Part shown: positions 5,015 to 58,757 of the stretch, piece by piece | How the letters are laid out: each line of letters starts with the position of its first letter | How positions within the stretch are numbered: the stretch's first letter is position 1 | Origin: Sordariomycetes sp. S80-01Y | Taxonomy: Eukaryota; Ascomycota; Sordariomycetes | Direction: 5' to 3' | Length of the DNA: 64,000 nt | Assembly (NCBI GenBank): GCA_037042185.1 | Contig: JAXQJY010000033.1 | Coordinates: forward strand, 1,612,001 to 1,676,000 | The notes under the pieces: generated by a model | What the model saw: only the letters and a program-made list of their open reading frames with translations | What the model was told of the DNA's origin: nothing | The model's database searches: none | Translations under genes and position numbers: made by a program

Positions 5015-7270
5015 TTAAGAAGAAGAGTCCGTAATAAGCTTGGTGATCTTTCCAATAGCAATAGTTTGACCCTGTGAAGAATGTTAGTTCTGCGGGTGTC
5101 TTAGTCGGAATTACTAGTCCAGCATACCTGATCACGCAGGGTGAAGCGTCCCATCTGTGGATAATCCTCGAACCGCTCGATGCAGACAGAGCCGGCGCCG
5201 CCAGTGACCTGCATCCTGGCAATGATACTGTCGCCCTTCTTGGCGTGCGAAGGCGCTTGCTTGCTCTTGCGGCCCGTTCCCTTCTGCAGCTTGTGCATTA
5301 AAGCGGCGAAAGTAACCTCTTCGATGGCGGAGTGAACGTGGAGCACGCAGTTGAATCCGGATGTCAGGATAGACTTGAGTTCCAGGATGCGAATTTGCGC
5401 CTCAAATTCGGCAACGCAGTGCACCAGTCGCTTGGGCGAGCAGATCACGAATCCGGGCAGGATGTCCTCTTCTTCAATGCCCTTCAGTCTCAAGCGCACC
5501 TGGTCACCGCACTGCGCGATGGCAATCTCATCCTCCTGCTCGCCGTAGACGGCAGACACTTCCAAGGGCTGCTTCCGGGGCATCATGACCAGGTTCATGC
5601 CCTTTTTGACCACACCAGCCTCAACCTTACCGTCAATCATGGTACCGAGATCGCGATACTTCGCGTTGACGGGCATCATGAAGGGCGCGTTAACCTTGCG
5701 CTCCAGAGCCTTCATGTCGTCCAGGTATTCCAGCAGCGAGGGACCATCCCACCAGGGACAGATCTCCTTGCCAACACGGTCCTTGATGTTCAACATCTGC
5801 TGAGCCGCGACTGGCATAAAGAAGACATCGGTCTTGAGGTTGTAGCCGGTTCCCTTCAGGAACTGGGAAAGCTTGCTTGTGCACTCCTTGTAGCGGTCCT
5901 CGGACCATTCGACGGTGGGGTCGTCCATCTTGTTGATAACAACAACGAGCTTGTTGACACCCTGGGTCTTTGCCAACATGGCGTGCTCACGGGTTTGCCC
6001 ACCTTTCTCAAAACCAGTCTCGTACTCACCCTTACGAGCTGAGATAACCAAGATACCGACATCGGCTTGGGAAGCGCCACCAATCATGTTTGGCACGTAC
6101 GTCTTGTGGCCGGGGGCATCCAGGATACTGTATCTGCGCTTCTCAGTCTCGAAGAAACCGCGGCCGACTTCAACAGTCTTTCCCTTGGAACGCTCCTCCT
6201 TGGTCAAATCCATGACCCACGACAAGTACCAAGACTCACGACCAAGGTCCTTGGCCTCCTTCTTGTACTTCTCCATCGTACGTTCGTCAACCATTCCAGT
6301 GGTCCATAGGATAGAACCACCCAGAGTTGATTTTCCTGCGTCAACGTGACCGATGAAGATGATGTTGACGTGCTCCTTGCCGTAAATCTCCTTCAGAGTC
6401 TCATCATCAACATCCGCCGCCTGCTCCTTGGTAACGGCATCGACGTCGCGCTGAGGTTTCTTATCTCCAGGTCCAACAGGGCTGGAGCGTCCAGACGAAG
6501 TCGGTGAGGTCTTACCAGAGGACTTCCCGCTAGCAGCCGCAGCCTTGCCGGTCTTCTCTCCGGTCTTCTCGATGGCTTTGGCAGCAGTCGTCTTTTGGCC
6601 GGCCTCGGCGGCACTTGTTTGATCGGGCTTGGGTTCCTCCTTAGGCTCCTCTTTCGGTTTCGTGTCGCCTCCGATAGATAGGACCTTGGCCTTGGGCTTA
6701 GCTGCGCCCGTGTCACCTCCAATGCTCAATACCTTGGCGCCTCCCTCCTTTGTGACGGTAGGCTTAGGCGCGGCAGCGACATTATCGGCGGGGGCGTCGT
6801 TCTTGGGTGCCGAGGGAGCAGCTGGCTGCTGTGGTTGCTGGGGTTGTTGGTACTGGTTGTACCCGCCTGCTGATGTCAGAACGGAAAATATCTGGGGAAC
6901 TTGGGAGCGACTTACCATAGCCTTGCTGCTGCTGCTGGTATCCCTGACTGAAGCCTCCTCCGTATTGCTGGTATTGTCCATAGTTCTGCTGGCCTCCGTA
7001 TTGTGGGTATCCATAACCCCCTTGCTGCTGGTAGTATTGCTGCTGTTGATACTGAGGTGCGAAGTTACCGCCGTACTGCTGTCCAGGCTGGAACGACTGA
7101 GCGCCTGGTGTGAAAGACTGGGCGCCGGGCTGGAAACTGTTCATGCCTGGGTTGAAGGCCCCTTGTTGCGCCTGGGCGGGGTTCATGTTGAGCTGCTGCT
7201 GGGCCTGGCGCGAGAGGTTCTCATCTTGCTGGGCGGAAGGGTCGTCCTCCCATGAGTTGAGGTGCGACAT
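5015..7270 (-). CDS. SUP35: Translation termination factor eRF3 with prion-like N-terminus
   Basis: GTPase partner of eRF1 in stop-codon recognition and peptide release in the cytosol. Exons: 7270-6916, 6866-5128 and 5071-5015, giving 716 residues. Residues 1-120 are rich in Q, Y, G and N, with imperfect SFxPGAQ repeats followed by QYQQQQYYQQQ-type runs, like the yeast Sup35 prion domain. The charged middle domain contains KVLSIGGDT twice (163-171 and 179-187). The EF-Tu-like part starts near 280: GHVDAGKST at 291-299, DAPGHKTYV (G3), NKMD (G4). The last 18 residues, ending TKLITDSSS, come from a 57-nt final exon after a 56-nt intron. The first intron ends in a tandem acceptor CAGCAG (6872-6867), so an isoform with one extra Ala is possible. 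The gene is divergent from the RanGTP-binding gene. Its paralogue HBS1 lies about 49 kb away in this window. Confidence 0.96.
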
Positions 7271-15505: not shown

Positions 15506-18500
15506 CTATTTCAAGGGCGACCCCTTCCCCGGCGTCCAGCTAGACCCGCCCCCGAACGCTCCAGCCGTCGCACCGCTCAAACGGTTAGGCGTCGTGGGCG
15601 CAGCACTCGTCGCGCTGTTCTCCACTGGCAAGGGCGGCGTGTCGGTCCTCTGGATCCCCTGGTCATCCCTCCTCGGAGGCTTGAAGTTAACATCGCGACC
15701 GACGCGGTAGATGTCCTGCAGCATCGCCTCCATGATGCCCGCATCCTCGAACTCGAGGAACTTCTTGTACAGCTTCAGCGCGGTCCTCGAGTCTTCGATC
15801 GAGTCGTGCGTCTCCATCTGGATGTCTTCCTTGAGGAGGTGCCAGGCCAAGAAGGCCAGTGAGAGCTTCCGCAGACGGGACTTGAGGAAGAATAGCTCGG
15901 CCGTGTCGATGACCTGGCTCTTGGGCACGTGTATGTTTATTACGCGGAAGTCCTGCTTGAGACCGTGGCCGAGAAACTTGCAGCCTAGATTGAGGAGGAT
16001 CCAGAGCTTCTTGTAAGCGATCTTCAGTGGCACAATGCAGTGACTCGCTATGCGTGGGTCGAGGTCCTGCTGCGTGATGCCTGAGTACGAGGTCAGATAG
16101 TCGACAATTGGCTCTCTTATAGCGATGTAGTCGTCGATGAACGGTACGCCCTCGTCCTCGCCTTGGCCCCGCACAACAGAGACGCGGGCGAGCGCGTATA
16201 CGATGGGACGGATGGTCTCTCGATCACCATCCGAGTTCATCTCAATCTCTGGCTGTCGCACCGCTACGAACTCCGTATCTAGCGCGATGACGGTGTCAGA
16301 ATTGGGAGCCTCCCGGTTAGGCGCAAGAACTTGGAAAGTCTTGCTGCTTGAATTAGGGATAGGGCTGTTTTCTCTGTCAGCGGTGCTCACGCTGCGACCT
16401 CTAACCACTTACCTATGATCTTGGTATAGCAGCGAGGTATCGAGATGATTCCTCCATTCGGTGTCGATTTTGTTATTTGCTTCTTTGACCTGATAACATA
16501 CAACTGAGGGCGTCTTCCACGCCGTGTTGAAAGTAAGCGCCTCCTCAGCGTTCGTGGATCGCACCAAGAAGTCATTGAACAGGTGCCACTGGCTACTTTC
16601 AGGTGCTTCTGGTTCCGCATGTGCAACTGTACGTCGTTAGCTTTTTGGAGCCTTCCGCAAACCGGTTTACACACCGTTGACCATTGACACGAGATGCGGC
16701 TTTTGTGTCTGGCCGTTCTCAATGTTGATTGCTGTCCCAATCAGAGAGTAGACAGTGATGTTATGCATCCCCCGTTGTAGGTGTAGCTTCAAGTCTTCCC
16801 CTTCATAACAGAAAAACTGGCCTTGCTCAACAATGATGCCAATCTCTTCGGGAAGCCACCCAGGCGTGGCCCACAACATCCGGTGCTCTTGGTTTGTGAC
16901 TGCAGTGTTGAGCATCAGAACGGCAGGTATGTTGTGGACCGTCTTGCGCGTCGCGATTGTCTGATACCGCTGGCATCGACTGCACCAGCCTTTGGTGGTG
17001 GTTTCTCGTTCTATGCTGTTCTTAAGCACTTGGGAAAACGTGATCCTTGGCATCTTTGCGTTGCGACCGGGATTCTTCTGGGCGGTCTTAGCAGCTTCCG
17101 CCTTACGGAGCTCTTTTCGACTCACAATCGAGGGATAAAGGAGGTCGTTCACATAGGACATCCCGGGCCTCGTGTACTCGCTTCGACAGTTCATGCATCT
17201 TATCGAACTTGTAGCATTGGTGGCCAGGATCTGTGATGTTAAGAGAGGTCCTCGATACCAAGGAGGTATGAGTGCTTACCTGCTCCATCGCCGCAGGGGT
17301 TGGCGACATAGTCTTGTAGTCATTGATAATTTTATCCAACAAGAAGCGCGTCAGCCCCTGGAGCATGACGTTTTGTGAGGAGCCATGCGGATCTTCTTCT
17401 AGCAACCCCAGTGGTCCCGCTACAAAGGTCAGTCCCCATTCGTGGTCAAAGTACGGGCTATTACCTTGCGGGTGATTGCTCAGCGTCTTCAAGAGATTGG
17501 TAGCTTGACAGATAGACCCCTCGGCCTTCTGCAGCATATCGAACAAGAATCCAAGTTCGCAGAGGAGACAAATCCCGCCAACACAGGCACTAGCCGTGTG
17601 CTCTAATGTCAAGTTCCGTATGAGGGGAGTGAAGTGCAATATCTGAAGCAGAGCATTGGCATATGAGTTGGATATGTGAGTCTCGAGCCCTGAGTAGCGG
17701 GTTTTGTTGTAGAAGCTGAGCGGTTAGAACGGTTCTGAAATCAAAAGGACGTCACTTACCCGAAATCAAAGTCGTCTACACCAAACTTGCTGTACTTGAT
17801 CTCAACAGTTCGGTACATAACCGGCACTTCCGACTTCTTGCTGTCCGGGACCATGTCGCCCAAGGGGCTTGCCAGATCATCAGCCTTGTCGTCATGTCTC
17901 GATGATTGGGCAGACTCGCGGGCCTTTTCGCTGAGAAATTTAGGCGCCTTCAAGCCAGCACTGGCGTTCTTGTCGACGTCTCTCGTATATTCGACTTGGT
18001 TGCGTCGAGTGACGCGTGAGTTCCTTCCGTAGAGCCCGAACTCCGTAGCTTTGAGTGAACTGAGAAACTGCGGGTCGTATTTGACTGGGGGCGCCCCAAC
18101 GTCACAAACGATTTCCGGCCAAGCTGATGCCAGTACTTCTCTATAGTAGGGCATGCCGATTGAGTTCAGGGGTCTGGATAGTCAGCGACTGGCAGCGAGG
18201 CAAGGTAGCGAACCTACGTTTCCGGAGTCCATTCAATTTGCGGGAACGGCTCATCTTGAGTAGATGTCTCCAAAGCAGTCGGAAGGTCCACAAAGTGAAG
18301 TTTCGTTGGAGAGCCCCAAAGGTGTATATGGTAATCGCCGTCCGTCAACACGATAGCCTCCCCTGACGGCGCTATCTCGAACATGCTCAGGTAGGTTAGC
18401 ACGTTGGCTTGGCGCACTTTGCTCGTGTTTGGATTCATCAGATCCACGACGTGCATCTGCCCGCTTTGGGACACAACGATACTCGTCGTCAACATCCTAG

Positions 18501-28774: not shown

Positions 28775-30529
28775 TTACCATCCCTTGGCGTGGTAGCCCT
28801 CGTCGCTGTCCTTGGACAGATAGTGGTAGAAAGCACCAGCGCTGTCATCCTCGCCAGTGTTCTTCATGCAAGCCTTCTCAGGATATTGCTTGAGGTTGGT
28901 GAGGTCTTGCGATGTGTGGCGGCGGACGAGGTGTGCGTTGTATGTAGAAGCAGCACGCTGGCGCTCCCAGGCCAGGCTGCGGCGGAGACTGTCCGTGAGT
29001 TCGTGTCCGATCATCTGTCGACGGGTTGCGCGCGGGGACAGGGCGCCGCCGGTCATGCCTTGCTGGCGCTGAGGAATGTTCTGGGCGCGGGAGCCTTCCT
29101 TGATGGGGTTCAAGGCAGGCTGGCGGGCGGACTTCATCATGAGGGGAGCATCGTCTGAGTCGTTGGGAGAGGCGCCGAGGTTGGATTTGCGCTGCTGCTG
29201 AGGGTCGCGAGAGATGGCGGGAGTCGATTGCGAGTTGTAGTTGCTGAGCTTCTTAGCCCTCTCCTCGCTGTCTGCAAGGCCGAGAGTGATGAGGGATCGG
29301 CGTGAGGTCAAGTTAACCTTGGAGTCGACCCTCTGGAAATATTTGTCATCAACGGACGACTTTCCGCTGTCCTCGATGGAGTCTTCCCAGTCGGAAGAGT
29401 CGTCATCGTCGTCGATGGCGCTGTAGTCGTCCTCGGAATCAGACTCGATGGCATTGTCGTAGTTGGGTGGGTGGGTGATGACGCGGTTGCTGAAAGAGGC
29501 CTGCTTCTTTTGCGCGGACAATCCAGCACTTGATCGCGAAGCAAGGGCGCTCTTCAGGGATCCTTCCTCCTCGGAAGAGCCTCCAAGCTTGAATTGGGCG
29601 GCGTTCTTGGACTTGGGTGCGAGGGCGGGAAGAACCGGCTGGCGGGTCTCGACGCTCTGGCCGGCCTCGCTGGAGGAGTAAGAGGCGCCGAGGGCGAAAT
29701 TGGCCTTTCTGCCTCCTGGACGCACCATCTTGGGTGCAGCAGATGGGGTCGTTTCGGAAATGGCATCGGTGGATTGTTGCTGAAGGAAAGAGGGTTGAAG
29801 GGTCTTGGTGGGATGCGAGCGAGGAGAGGGGGTAAAGCCACGGACGACTGTGGTGGTGCGCGGCGGCATCTCAGGTGAGGGGTGGGACTCCTCGGAGTGG
29901 AGATCCGAGTTCTTGGACGGTGATTGGGACTCAGTCGTGGTCGAGCCCGATCGGTGGATTGTGTTCTCAGTAGGCTCCGCCACCTTTGTCGGCGACGCCA
30001 TGATGGGCTTTTTGTTTGTGGTTGGGTTGTGCGTAGGGGCAGATAGAGGGGCCTTGTCCTTGACGATGGAGACGATCATCTTCTCGAAGTCGTCGGAACT
30101 AGTGTGGCGGTCTCCGGATCGGGTCCTGGTCGACGAGTCCTGTCGTTGGATCCTCGGACGGGCGATGTCGAGCGGGGCGGAAACCGATGTGAACTCGACT
30201 GTTTCGTCGTCGGCAACAGACTCAACACTGGTGGACAGTTGCGGGAGTCCGTGGAGTCGATCGGAGACGATGGGTACAGGTAATTGGTGGCTGTTGTTCT
30301 TAACGTTGCTGAGCGCGGCGACAGCGAGCTTCTGTTCGCTCTCGATGAGCTGCTCCTTCTGCCACAACCGCCAACTCAGGTTCTCAAGTCTCCGTCCTTG
30401 TTCTAGCGATTCGGCGCAGCGGGAGAAGACCGTCCACATGCTGTGGATGGTGGCAGGGTTGGCACAGTCGACCTTGTGGATGACCTTTTCATCCACAGTC
30501 AACACGTGTGTGTCTAAAGAGAATGGCAT
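28775..30529 (-). CDS. AreA-like-domain / DUF3295 regulatory protein
   Basis: Single exon, 584 residues, ATG at 30529. Residues about 24-57 (ANPATIHSMWTVFSRCAESL then EQGRRLENLSWRLWQKE) match from memory the short GATA-AreA-like module (formerly DUF1752) found in AreA/NIT2-type nitrogen regulators and in several non-DNA-binding fungal regulators. The C-terminus (about 490-584), with IGHELTDSLRRSLAWER, RRHTSQDLTNLKQYPEK and the end GYHAKGW, matches the DUF3295 family. The middle is Ser/Pro/Thr-rich with an acidic patch ESDSEDDYSAIDDDDDS and is probably disordered and phosphorylated. No GATA zinc finger is present, so it is likely a cofactor or signalling adaptor in nutrient response rather than a DNA-binding factor; this is inference. 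It is the only recognised gene between 20.9 and 46.2 kb. Confidence 0.87.
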   Translation of the reverse strand: MPFSLDTHVLTVDEKVIHKVDCANPATIHSMWTVFSRCAESLEQGRRLENLSWRLWQKEQLIESEQKLAVAALSNVKNNSHQLPVPIVSDRLHGLPQLSTSVESVADDETVEFTSVSAPLDIARPRIQRQDSSTRTRSGDRHTSSDDFEKMIVSIVKDKAPLSAPTHNPTTNKKPIMASPTKVAEPTENTIHRSGSTTTESQSPSKNSDLHSEESHPSPEMPPRTTTVVRGFTPSPRSHPTKTLQPSFLQQQSTDAISETTPSAAPKMVRPGGRKANFALGASYSSSEAGQSVETRQPVLPALAPKSKNAAQFKLGGSSEEEGSLKSALASRSSAGLSAQKKQASFSNRVITHPPNYDNAIESDSEDDYSAIDDDDDSSDWEDSIEDSGKSSVDDKYFQRVDSKVNLTSRRSLITLGLADSEERAKKLSNYNSQSTPAISRDPQQQRKSNLGASPNDSDDAPLMMKSARQPALNPIKEGSRAQNIPQRQQGMTGGALSPRATRRQMIGHELTDSLRRSLAWERQRAASTYNAHLVRRHTSQDLTNLKQYPEKACMKNTGEDDSAGAFYHYLSKDSDEGYHAKGW

Positions 30530-56209: not shown

Positions 56210-58757
56210 ATGCCTCCTAGCCAGTATGTTGACGATTTCGATGACGACGGTCTCGACGATGACTATGACGCCGACGAGTATGGCGATACCGAAGGCATGA
56301 CGGCCGAGGACGAGGCTTCTATGGCAGAAGGTACTGCTGCGGTACGCAAGGAGCTCGGGAAGGAGGACTCAAACAAAGTCACCTTGAAACAGATCCAAGA
56401 TGCTCTGTGGAATTACTACTACGATGTTCCTAAATCTGTTTCGTACCTGAGGAAGACGTTTATCGCACCTCCACCAGCGAAACCAGCGCCCAAGCCCACA
56501 GCTCCTAAGAAGACAGCCGAAGGTATGTTCCGAGATCTTCTTCCTCCAACGTATTCTTTTGCGGCGGAATCGACTGGGGTAGACCAAACAAGTCCTGCAA
56601 TGGCGGAAGCCGCACCATGCTCTCGGAAACCATTTCCACTTCGACTCGAGCCACAGGAAATGTCCCCGCTCAGCTTTTTCCACGACATGCCATGGCTCCA
56701 AACACCGCTGGATCGACACACGCAGTTTGTAGAGGCCTGGAGGCCCTGCGGCGGCCTGCTTGGAGGCGGTGACGGCTCAGGCATGACGAAGCTGCAGAAA
56801 CTCGCTGCCGCCCGAAAGAAGAAGGCGGACGATCAGAAACAACAAGAGAAGACTACCCAAGTTGAAAAGGGCCTGGAGGGCATGCATGTTTCCAGCGCCA
56901 AAGAGGCGGGTGACACCAAAATAGCACCGTCTGCCAAACGTCAAAAGCTCTCTCCTGAATCCACACAGCCGGAGCCTAGTCAATCTCAAGATGAAGCGTC
57001 ACTGGAAGAAGTTTCAGGCGCGCCGGAACACGAGCACGCTAGAGTCGAAGAACCTGAACCTGGTCCTGTATCTTCACAGGCGGAGCCGTCAGCATTTGCA
57101 AGGACACTGTTTGGTTCTGCCCCAGGGGCGTCTCGGGCTAGGGCACAAGACATTTTCCCTATGCCTTCTACGCAGTCAACACTCTTCACCCCATCGAACT
57201 TCTCGCAGCCTAGCCCGGACGACGTCGTGTTTGAAGCCCAATCCAAAGGTTCGGGTTTTGCAAAGGCCAAGTGATGGGCTAATCCTAATCTCATATAGCT
57301 GGGCCTAAGCCTGCAGCGGCTCCAAAAGCGCCGAAAAAGAAGAACGAAAAGGTTGCTTCCGGATCAACGGATCAGGCTGTAGAAGGTGTCTCAAACCTGA
57401 CCATCACCGACGTACCGCCGCCTAAGAGTAAAGGACTGGACGTCGTCAAGGAATTTGAAAATAGCTCAAGCAAGCGCAGCGTTAGCTTCGTTGTCGTCGG
57501 TGAGTTCAATCTCCTTTGCCGGGTTCTTAATGCCTAACAAGTATAGGTCATGTTGATGCTGGGAAAAGCACTCTGATGGGCAGGCTGCTAATGGAGCTCA
57601 AGTTCGTCGAGCAACGAACTGTCGACAAGTACCGGAGGCAAGGCGAAAAGATCGGCAAACAGTCATTCGCACTAGCATGGGTTATGGACCAGAGGAGTGA
57701 AGAAAGAGACCGTGGTGTGACCATCGACATCGCGACGAACTACTTTGAAACGGACAAGACAAAGTTCACCATCCTGGATGCCCCCGGTCATCGCGACTTT
57801 GTGCCGAACATGATTGCTGGAGCAAGTCAGGCTGACTTTGCTATTCTTGTCATCGATGCCAATACTGGGGCCTACGAGAAGGGCTTGAAAGGGCAAACCC
57901 GAGAGCATGTCCTTCTTCTTCGCAGCCTAGGCGTGCAGAAGATTGTGGTGGCCATCAACAAGCTTGACATGGTGGGTTGGTCCCAGGATCGGTTCGACGA
58001 AATCAACAACCAAGTGACCGGATTCCTTAATGGCCTGGGATTTCAGGAGAAGCATATAGTCTTCGTTCCCATCTCAGGTCTTAATGGAGACAATATTGTC
58101 AACCCCATCGAAGACCCGGCAGCAGCTTGGTACAATGGAACCACCCTCGTTGATGCTTTGGAGGGCTCGGGACCTTCTACTGCTCGAGCTCTGCGCAAAC
58201 CCTTGAGGATGGGTATCTCTGAGGTGTTCCGTTCCGAGCAAGGGACGACCACATTGTCCGGACGCGTCGATGCAGGTACAATGCAGGTTGGAGACGTGCT
58301 CGTTGTGCAGCCGAGCGGCGAAAACGCTTACGTCAAATCAATAGTGGTCGACGGCGAGAAGCAGGACTGGGCTGTCGCTGGCCAGAACATCAACATCGCC
58401 TTGACCAACATCGACCCTATGCACATCAAGGTGGGTGACATATTGTGTCATCCGACGGATGCGATCGCATGCGGCGACACTTTCACCATGAAGGCTATGG
58501 CGTTCGAACATATCCTACCGTCACCAATCGATCTCCACAGAGGCCGACTCCACGCGCCTGGTCAAATCCAAACCCTTGTGGCGTCACTCGACAAGGCTAC
58601 CGGAGAAGTTGTCAAGAAGAAGCCCAAGGTGATTCAGCCGGGAGGCGTGGCTAGGGTAAAGATTAAGCTTGAGGCTAAAGTGCCTCTTGAGGCTGGCCAG
58701 CGCGTTGTCATTCGCAGCAGCGGGGAGACAATTGCTGCTGGCCTTTTGGAATCGTAA
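56210..58757 (+). CDS. HBS1: Ribosome-rescue GTPase HBS1, predicted to encode a SKI7-like isoform too
   Basis: eRF3-like GTPase that works with Dom34/Pelota on stalled ribosomes. Long form: 56210-57248, 57299-57499, 57547-58757, 816 residues. The N-terminal HBS1 domain is about residues 50-90 (VTLKQIQDALWNYYYDVPKS). The GTPase part begins GHVDAGKST at 414-422, then RGVTID, DAPGHRDF, NKLD; EF1A-like beta barrels follow to AAGLLES. The intron at 57249-57298 (50 nt) must be removed, since reading on meets a stop. A second, optional intron is predicted at 56523-56780: donor GAAG|GTATGT, acceptor CTCAG|GC, 258 nt, in frame, no stop. Removing it gives a 730-residue HBS1 form; keeping it adds residues 106-190 with SPLSFFHDMPWLQTP and GGLLGG, which I read as the SKI7-like module that links the exosome to the SKI complex. 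Which form dominates cannot be told from DNA. Confidence 0.93.

Follow-up and report, generated by a model that had tools for sequence, protein, structure and literature searches.

The locus and its gene

The gene at 56210-58757, on the forward strand of the window (the whole 64,000-nucleotide stretch of DNA that was analyzed), is on its domain and motif matches an HBS1-family gene carrying SKI7 motifs (Table 1). Removal of the introns at 57249-57298 and 57500-57546 gives a protein of 816 residues, and removal of the segment 56523-56780 as well gives one of 730. Pfam recognized both the HBS1_N domain and an EF-Tu-type GTPase (GTP_EFTU, E 8.7e-52), bearing out the family assignment made in a preliminary description of this DNA. 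The two top PDB matches of the full protein were Hbs1 chains, 5lzw (named Hbs1l) and 3mca, which we take to be mammalian and from S. pombe, respectively; the 3mca chain matched the N-terminal part as well as the GTPase part. Hbs1 chains among the PDB matches have 710 residues in the case of mammalian Hbs1l and 592 and 611 aa in the case of two yeast proteins. The GTPase motifs GHVDAGKS, DAPGHRD, and NKLD are intact, and DAPGHRD (57777-57797) retains the catalytic His. The gene therefore combines an HBS1 N-terminal domain with an EF-Tu-type GTPase whose catalytic His is intact, a combination that marks the single SKI7/HBS1 gene of ascomycetes.

Table 1. Features of the HBS1/SKI7 gene, in window coordinates
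Feature	Position	Strand	Remarks
HBS1/SKI7 gene, start to stop codon	56210-58757	+	Encodes 816 aa when no intron other than the two downstream ones is spliced out
HBS1_N domain, residues 16-89, common to all forms	56255-56476	+	Pfam PF08938, E 1.7e-22
5′ splice site GTATGT	56523-56528	+	Top-scoring donor in 56300-57250
Optional block of the preliminary description, 258 nt, 86 codons	56523-56780	+	No Pfam or PDB match
Candidate 60-nt intron, proximal 3′ site GTAG at 56582	56523-56582	+	T-rich, non-coding-like codon score, poor branch site
Branch-site-like GTGAC (56769-56773) and candidate 3′ splice site CTCAG	56769-56780	+	Weak; gives 730 aa
S1-like motif MTKLQKLAAARKKK, beginning with an in-frame ATG	56783-56824	+	Compare yeast Ski7 N terminus MSLLEQLARKRIEK
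Candidate distal in-frame 3′ site at 57092, branch-site-like TTCAC at 57073-57077	57073-57092	+	Intron 56523-57092
Exosome-docking helix EPSAFARTLFGSAP	57083-57124	+	Compare human SKI7 ARPSAFASTL, Arabidopsis AKSLFGSVP
Patch 4 / S3-type motif SNFSQPSPDDVVFEAQ	57194-57241	+	Compare yeast NFNRPSPDDIIQSAQ, human FDFKSASPDDIVKANQ
Constitutive intron, 50 nt	57249-57298	+	Donor GTTCGG weak, exact donor uncertain
EF-Tu-type GTPase and C-terminal domains, residues 405-814	57472-58748	+	Pfam; PDB; motifs
Constitutive intron, 47 nt	57500-57546	+	Strong signals

The frame requires an intron at 57249-57298, where only 1 of 56 training donors scored at or below GTTCGG; donors at 57255 or 57227 would also keep the frame.

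When the full protein was compared with the assembly (30.87 Mb, 16 contigs), the sole near-identical match among the best candidates scored was the gene itself. The next-best places reached at most 36% identity over the GTPase; the one on contig C16 is eRF3, and the 36%-identical one lies on C10. Searched on its own, the segment from the donor at 56523 to Patch 4 gave only its self-match below E 0.9, with one other match at E 0.96. No second HBS1/SKI7 copy was thus found among the best candidates scored in these 16 contigs and 30.87 Mb, in agreement with the single gene proposed earlier; being the only such gene in its genome is likewise characteristic of the ascomycete SKI7/HBS1 gene. The genome also contains matches to pelota, to the DSHCT helicase family (a single place on C10 and, on C13, two pieces next to each other), which includes both Ski2 and Mtr4, and to the Csl4 family (profile positions 73-111 of 112). 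These matches count in favor of the reading preferred below, as does the position of the strong donor, which lies where the published account of such genes sets the alternative intron (PMC3597508).

Queries for relatives found no fungal relative in viral or genome contigs. A 163-aa GTPase query of viral contigs gave no relative (13 stretches fit the pattern, 0 confirmed), nor did a query of genome contigs with the N-terminal 470 aa (55 stretches, 0 confirmed), and all 14 loci retrieved from genome contigs with a 63-aa GTPase query came from records titled as archaeal or bacterial and were left aside.

Elsewhere in the window, matches were found for two further genes that had been named before. 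eRF3, another translational GTPase from the superfamily to which HBS1/SKI7 belongs, is encoded ∼50 kb away on the reverse strand (5101-7014, 637 aa) and matches the solved eRF3 chain 1r5b at E 2.2e-190. The best UCH_1 matches of the genome, in two pieces at 16562-17693 on the reverse strand, are consistent with PAN2. In a reverse-strand ORF at 28775-30529, one region matches DUF3295 (E 1.5e-114) and the N terminus carries an AreA-type GATA-like motif.

The 258-nt block and the SKI7 motifs

The preliminary description proposed that a 258-nt block at 56523-56780 is an optional intron. We recomputed its arithmetic and found it correct: the block starts with GTATGT, ends with CTCAG, is in frame and stop-free, and keeps Gly at both borders, so that 816 or 730 residues result. 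It contains SFFHDMPWLQTP (56672-56707) and GGLLGGG (56750-56770), and searched alone it had no match in Pfam or PDB up to E 10. Strings resembling SKLAALAAARKKK and GGLLGG may occur in other filamentous fungal HBS1 predictions as well, to which we give no weight; a literature search on the peptide strings gave no paper that was relevant by its title.

SKI7 motif matches came solely from direct window-by-window scoring of the protein; phmmer, given the linker and SKI7 motifs, returned no PDB match up to E 10. The core of the exosome-docking helix is identical to the human sequence at 8/11 positions and to Arabidopsis AKSLFGSVP at 6/9, and Patch 4 is identical to yeast at 9/15 and to human at 7/14. 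Each was by a wide margin the best place in the protein. Among 5000 shuffles, two did as well for the human helix core and none for the Arabidopsis motif, yeast Patch 4, or human Patch 4; the whole 18-residue helix was equaled by 16/5000. A Patch 4 (motif S3) accompanied by the exosome helix is a further mark of the single ascomycete SKI7/HBS1 gene, and both are present here. Human SKI7 is described as docking on the exosome at two places: residues 555-572 form a helix that binds at RRP43-MTR3, and residues 602-616, farther along, bind at CSL4 (PMC11540850). In the human SKI7 PDB chain 9g8m, these stretches read ALAARPSAFASTLCLRYP and ITPFDFKSASPDDIVKANQ, with residue numbers matched by offset.

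The N terminus of yeast Ski7 fitted best at the S1-like motif, with 6/14 residues identical and a score of 25 versus 12 for the next place. Because 99/5000 shuffles did as well and this was one of nine motif scans, we regard the match as moderate evidence. Yeast S2 had no clear match in the protein (3542/5000 shuffles as good), and the resemblance was dropped as not significant. The human SKI3-binding helix had no counterpart in the protein (3618/5000), and a likeness between it and the block was rejected as no better than shuffles.

Helix, Patch 4, and S1-like motif all lie downstream of 56780 and are therefore present in both the 816- and the 730-aa protein. The earlier identification of the retained block as the exosome adaptor was rejected on this ground. 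The earlier interpretation stands in part: the SKI7 motifs are in the gene, but those for the exosome lie outside the block that carries FFHDMPWLQTP and GGLLGG. In a single SKI7/HBS1 gene of the ascomycete type, S1 and S2 would be expected within the alternative segment. Here the S1-like motif falls outside the 258-nt unit; a longer unit ending at 57092 would include it. A role for the block in binding the Ski complex is possible; we infer it, and do not read it from the motifs, because the human SKI3-binding helix is without counterpart in the protein.

The S1-like motif also bears on a reading modeled on Candida albicans, whose gene is reported to use an alternative first exon starting at S1 (PMC3597508). 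Transcription would begin inside the block and translation at ATG 56783, giving an N-truncated, yeast-like SKI7. The motif does start at an in-frame ATG that has a purine at −3, and S1 likewise starts with ATG in yeast Ski7 and, according to the same account (PMC3597508), in four Candida species. However, four other in-frame ATGs lie upstream of 56783 in the block, and since all carry a purine at −3, ATG 56783 is not singled out. We consider this reading very improbable.

Splice signals and coding character after the donor

Splice sites were scored against a training set of 56 introns chosen by consensus-like rules (donor, CAG/TAG, branch-like site, length 40-110); ranks within the set are therefore relative and biased toward consensus. 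A first set of 50 introns contained obvious false introns and was discarded. Scoring was run twice, with branch sites lacking the A allowed and then with the A required. As controls we took 49 ORFs other than that of the gene itself, each running from stop to stop over 350 codons or more and together 91,770 nt long.

The donor at 56523 is credible as judged by its score, with 33/56 training donors at or below it. The in-frame 3′ sites that could pair with it, 56582, 56780, and 57092 if one donor is joined to two alternative sites, are all weak. With the branch A required, the in-frame scores were 7.53 for 57092, 6.77 for 56780, 5.21 for 56924, 3.79 for 57017, 2.10 for 56732, and 1.85 for 56582. 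The two highest-ranking 3′ sites downstream of the donor, 57079 and 56968 (8.97 each), do not keep the frame. Site 56780 had 0/56 training introns at or below it with the branch A optional and 4/56 with it required; 57092 also had 4/56 with the A required, and 56582 scored below all 56. Use of 56582, which would yield a SKI7 form of 796 aa, is not affirmed here because its branch-site match is poor.

Control ORFs contained 33 donors at least as strong as 56523 (0.36/kb) and 1051 3′ sites at least equal to 56780 (11.5/kb). Of these ORFs, 10/49 held an in-frame GT-AG pair that equaled or surpassed that of the block, with the two sites 40-300 nt from each other (19 pairs in total). Taken alone, the splice signals of the block are not beyond chance. 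Splicing there is plausible because the block follows the HBS1 N-terminal domain and precedes the SKI7 motifs, like the published alternative intron.

The open frame of the block is weak evidence because 86 codons of its composition would be stop-free with a chance of 0.05 and the other two frames hold only 2 and 1 stops. Its coding character is divided. Under a codon model that, like the coding windows, includes the gene's own long ORF, the first 60 nt look non-coding: their score is near the out-of-frame mean, and just 3.9% of 1370 coding windows are as low. They are also T-rich, with a T content at or above that of 50/56 training introns. The remaining 198 nt score in between, with 9% of 402 coding windows as low and 6.5% of out-of-frame windows as high.

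These measurements bear on the reading in which the gene is not alternatively spliced at all, the 816-aa protein being the sole product and doing both jobs, and GT and AG standing in the block by chance. The frame open across the whole block, the weak 3′ sites, and the frequency of equally good pairs in control ORFs all favor it. Against it stand a strong donor within the expected interval, the first 60 nt with their low coding score, and the report that the long form of L. kluyveri could not replace Hbs1 (PMC3597508). On balance, we think it unlikely.

Probable alternative splicing in one HBS1/SKI7 gene

The reading that we favor, and hold to be probable on the sequence features above, is that this is a single HBS1/SKI7 gene of a filamentous ascomycete whose one strong donor, at 56523, is used alternatively, most likely with alternative 3′ sites as in A. 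nidulans. The donor sits after the HBS1 N-terminal domain and ahead of the SKI7 motifs. The long form would come from use of the proximal site 56582 or from retention, and 56780 or a farther site such as 57092 would give the short form. The short mRNA would encode an HBS1-like ribosome-rescue GTPase acting with Dom34/Pelota. The part that would hold the exosome, EPSAFARTL of the helix together with Patch 4, lies downstream, outside the 258-nt block, and the block with the adjacent S1-like motif would more likely belong to a SKI7-specific segment facing the Ski complex. We infer from sequence that two mRNAs are made, which 3′ sites they would use, and which partner the block would bind. Counted against this reading are the weakness of the candidate 3′ sites, the out-of-frame position of the top two (57079 and 56968), and the 10/49 control ORFs with an equal pair. 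Our confidences in the readings overlap because the favored one covers two of its rivals as variants.

In the first variant, which follows the preliminary description, the 258-nt block is one optional unit with no proximal 3′ site, removed to make HBS1 (730 aa) and retained whole to make SKI7 (816 aa). The block is in frame and stop-free, with Gly at both junctions; no convincing proximal site competes, 56582 lying below all training introns; its 198-nt remainder is intermediate in codon score; and the mammalian Hbs1l chain, at 710 residues, is near 730. Yet the first 60 nt score as non-coding, the yeast Hbs1 chains (592 and 611 aa) are far shorter than 730, and neither protein would lack the exosome and S1-like motifs. 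Compared with the published systems, the unit is too short, because S1 and the exosome helix would remain in the HBS1 form; moreover, A. nidulans, S. complicata, and L. kluyveri are shown by RT-PCR to use alternative 3′ sites (PMC3597508). We regard it as a tentative possibility.

In the second variant, the HBS1 form is made with a farther in-frame 3′ site, 57092 being the best candidate. The intron 56523-57092 would be 570 nt long, removing the block, S1-like motif, linker, and first residues of the exosome helix, and would leave a product of 626 aa (67.7 kDa). This size is close to yeast Hbs1 (592/611 aa) and to the 70-kDa short form reported for L. kluyveri, and the published scheme sets S1 and S2 inside the alternative exon, with the intron just upstream of S3 (PMC3597508). 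Among the in-frame 3′ sites downstream of the donor, 57092 also scores highest (7.53 vs. 6.77 for 56780). The difference in score is small, however, and 3′ sites equal to 56780 are common in coding DNA; the branch-like site of 57092 is shared with out-of-frame 57079, and the cut would fall inside the exosome helix. An intron of this length would also be long here: of 52 introns found, 35 measure less than 100 nt, 9 exceed 200 nt, and 2 exceed 570 nt, the long ones possibly being false. By the same distribution, the 60 nt of the candidate intron to 56582 are a common size. Protein length is a weak argument for 57092 because the mammalian Hbs1l chain has 710 aa. We consider this variant doubtful, and less probable than the optional 258-nt unit.

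In many fungi, one gene is described as supplying separate forms for the rescue of stalled ribosomes and for the 3′ decay of the mRNAs concerned (PMC3597508), and the splice decision could therefore set the balance between the two tasks. With the exosome motifs placed outside the optional block, the possible reach of that decision is different: use of 56780 could control Ski-complex binding, and use of 57092 could control exosome docking as well. A more far-reaching version, to which we give little credence, is that the proximal 3′ site was lost in this lineage, that the whole stretch after the donor is coding, and that SKI7 is made by true intron retention; the product would then add a lineage-specific Ski-complex-binding element, with both isoforms keeping their grip on the exosome. 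If such a retained, fully coding intron were real, exosome binding could extend to the HBS1 form, and it would be Ski-complex binding, not exosome binding, that splicing turns on and off.

Comparison with known systems

That one ascomycete gene can make both HBS1 and SKI7, as the preliminary description had noted, is not new (Marshall et al. 2013, PMC3597508). The gene described here is probably one more case of that published system, with a probable alternative intron at 56523.

Relative to human HBS1L isoform 3/SKI7 (PDB 9g8m; PMC11540850), our protein has clear equivalents of ARPSAFASTL and SPDDIVKANQ, both located after the block, and none detectable of the human SKI3-binding helix. Human SKI7 is described as having a different C-terminal part without the GTPase (PMC6143672). 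In S. cerevisiae, Ski7 (PDB 5g06, 5jea, 8qca) resembles our protein in Patch 4 (9/15 identical) and the S1-like motif (6/14), and Hbs1 (PDB 3p26, 3izq) resembles it in the Hbs1-type GTPase. Yeast has two genes after duplication, however, and its Ski7 is reported to lack the N-terminal domain and the catalytic His, both kept here (PMC3597508); the His lost in duplicated yeast Ski7 genes is that of motif G3, according to the same source.

The L. kluyveri gene, like the present one, unites the HBS1 N-terminal domain, SKI7 motifs, and an active-type GTPase. Its long form is described as SKI7 and its short form as HBS1, with S1 and S2 between the two 3′ sites, whereas here the S1-like motif comes after the 3′ site at 56780 (PMC3597508). 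The A. nidulans gene is also the single SKI7/HBS1 gene of a filamentous ascomycete with the alternative intron upstream of S3, and two alternative 3′ sites in the second of its four introns are reported to be proven by RT-PCR (PMC3597508). Compared with that published description, our gene has one candidate donor with several unproven in-frame 3′ sites, and no stop interrupts its sequence between the donor and Patch 4.
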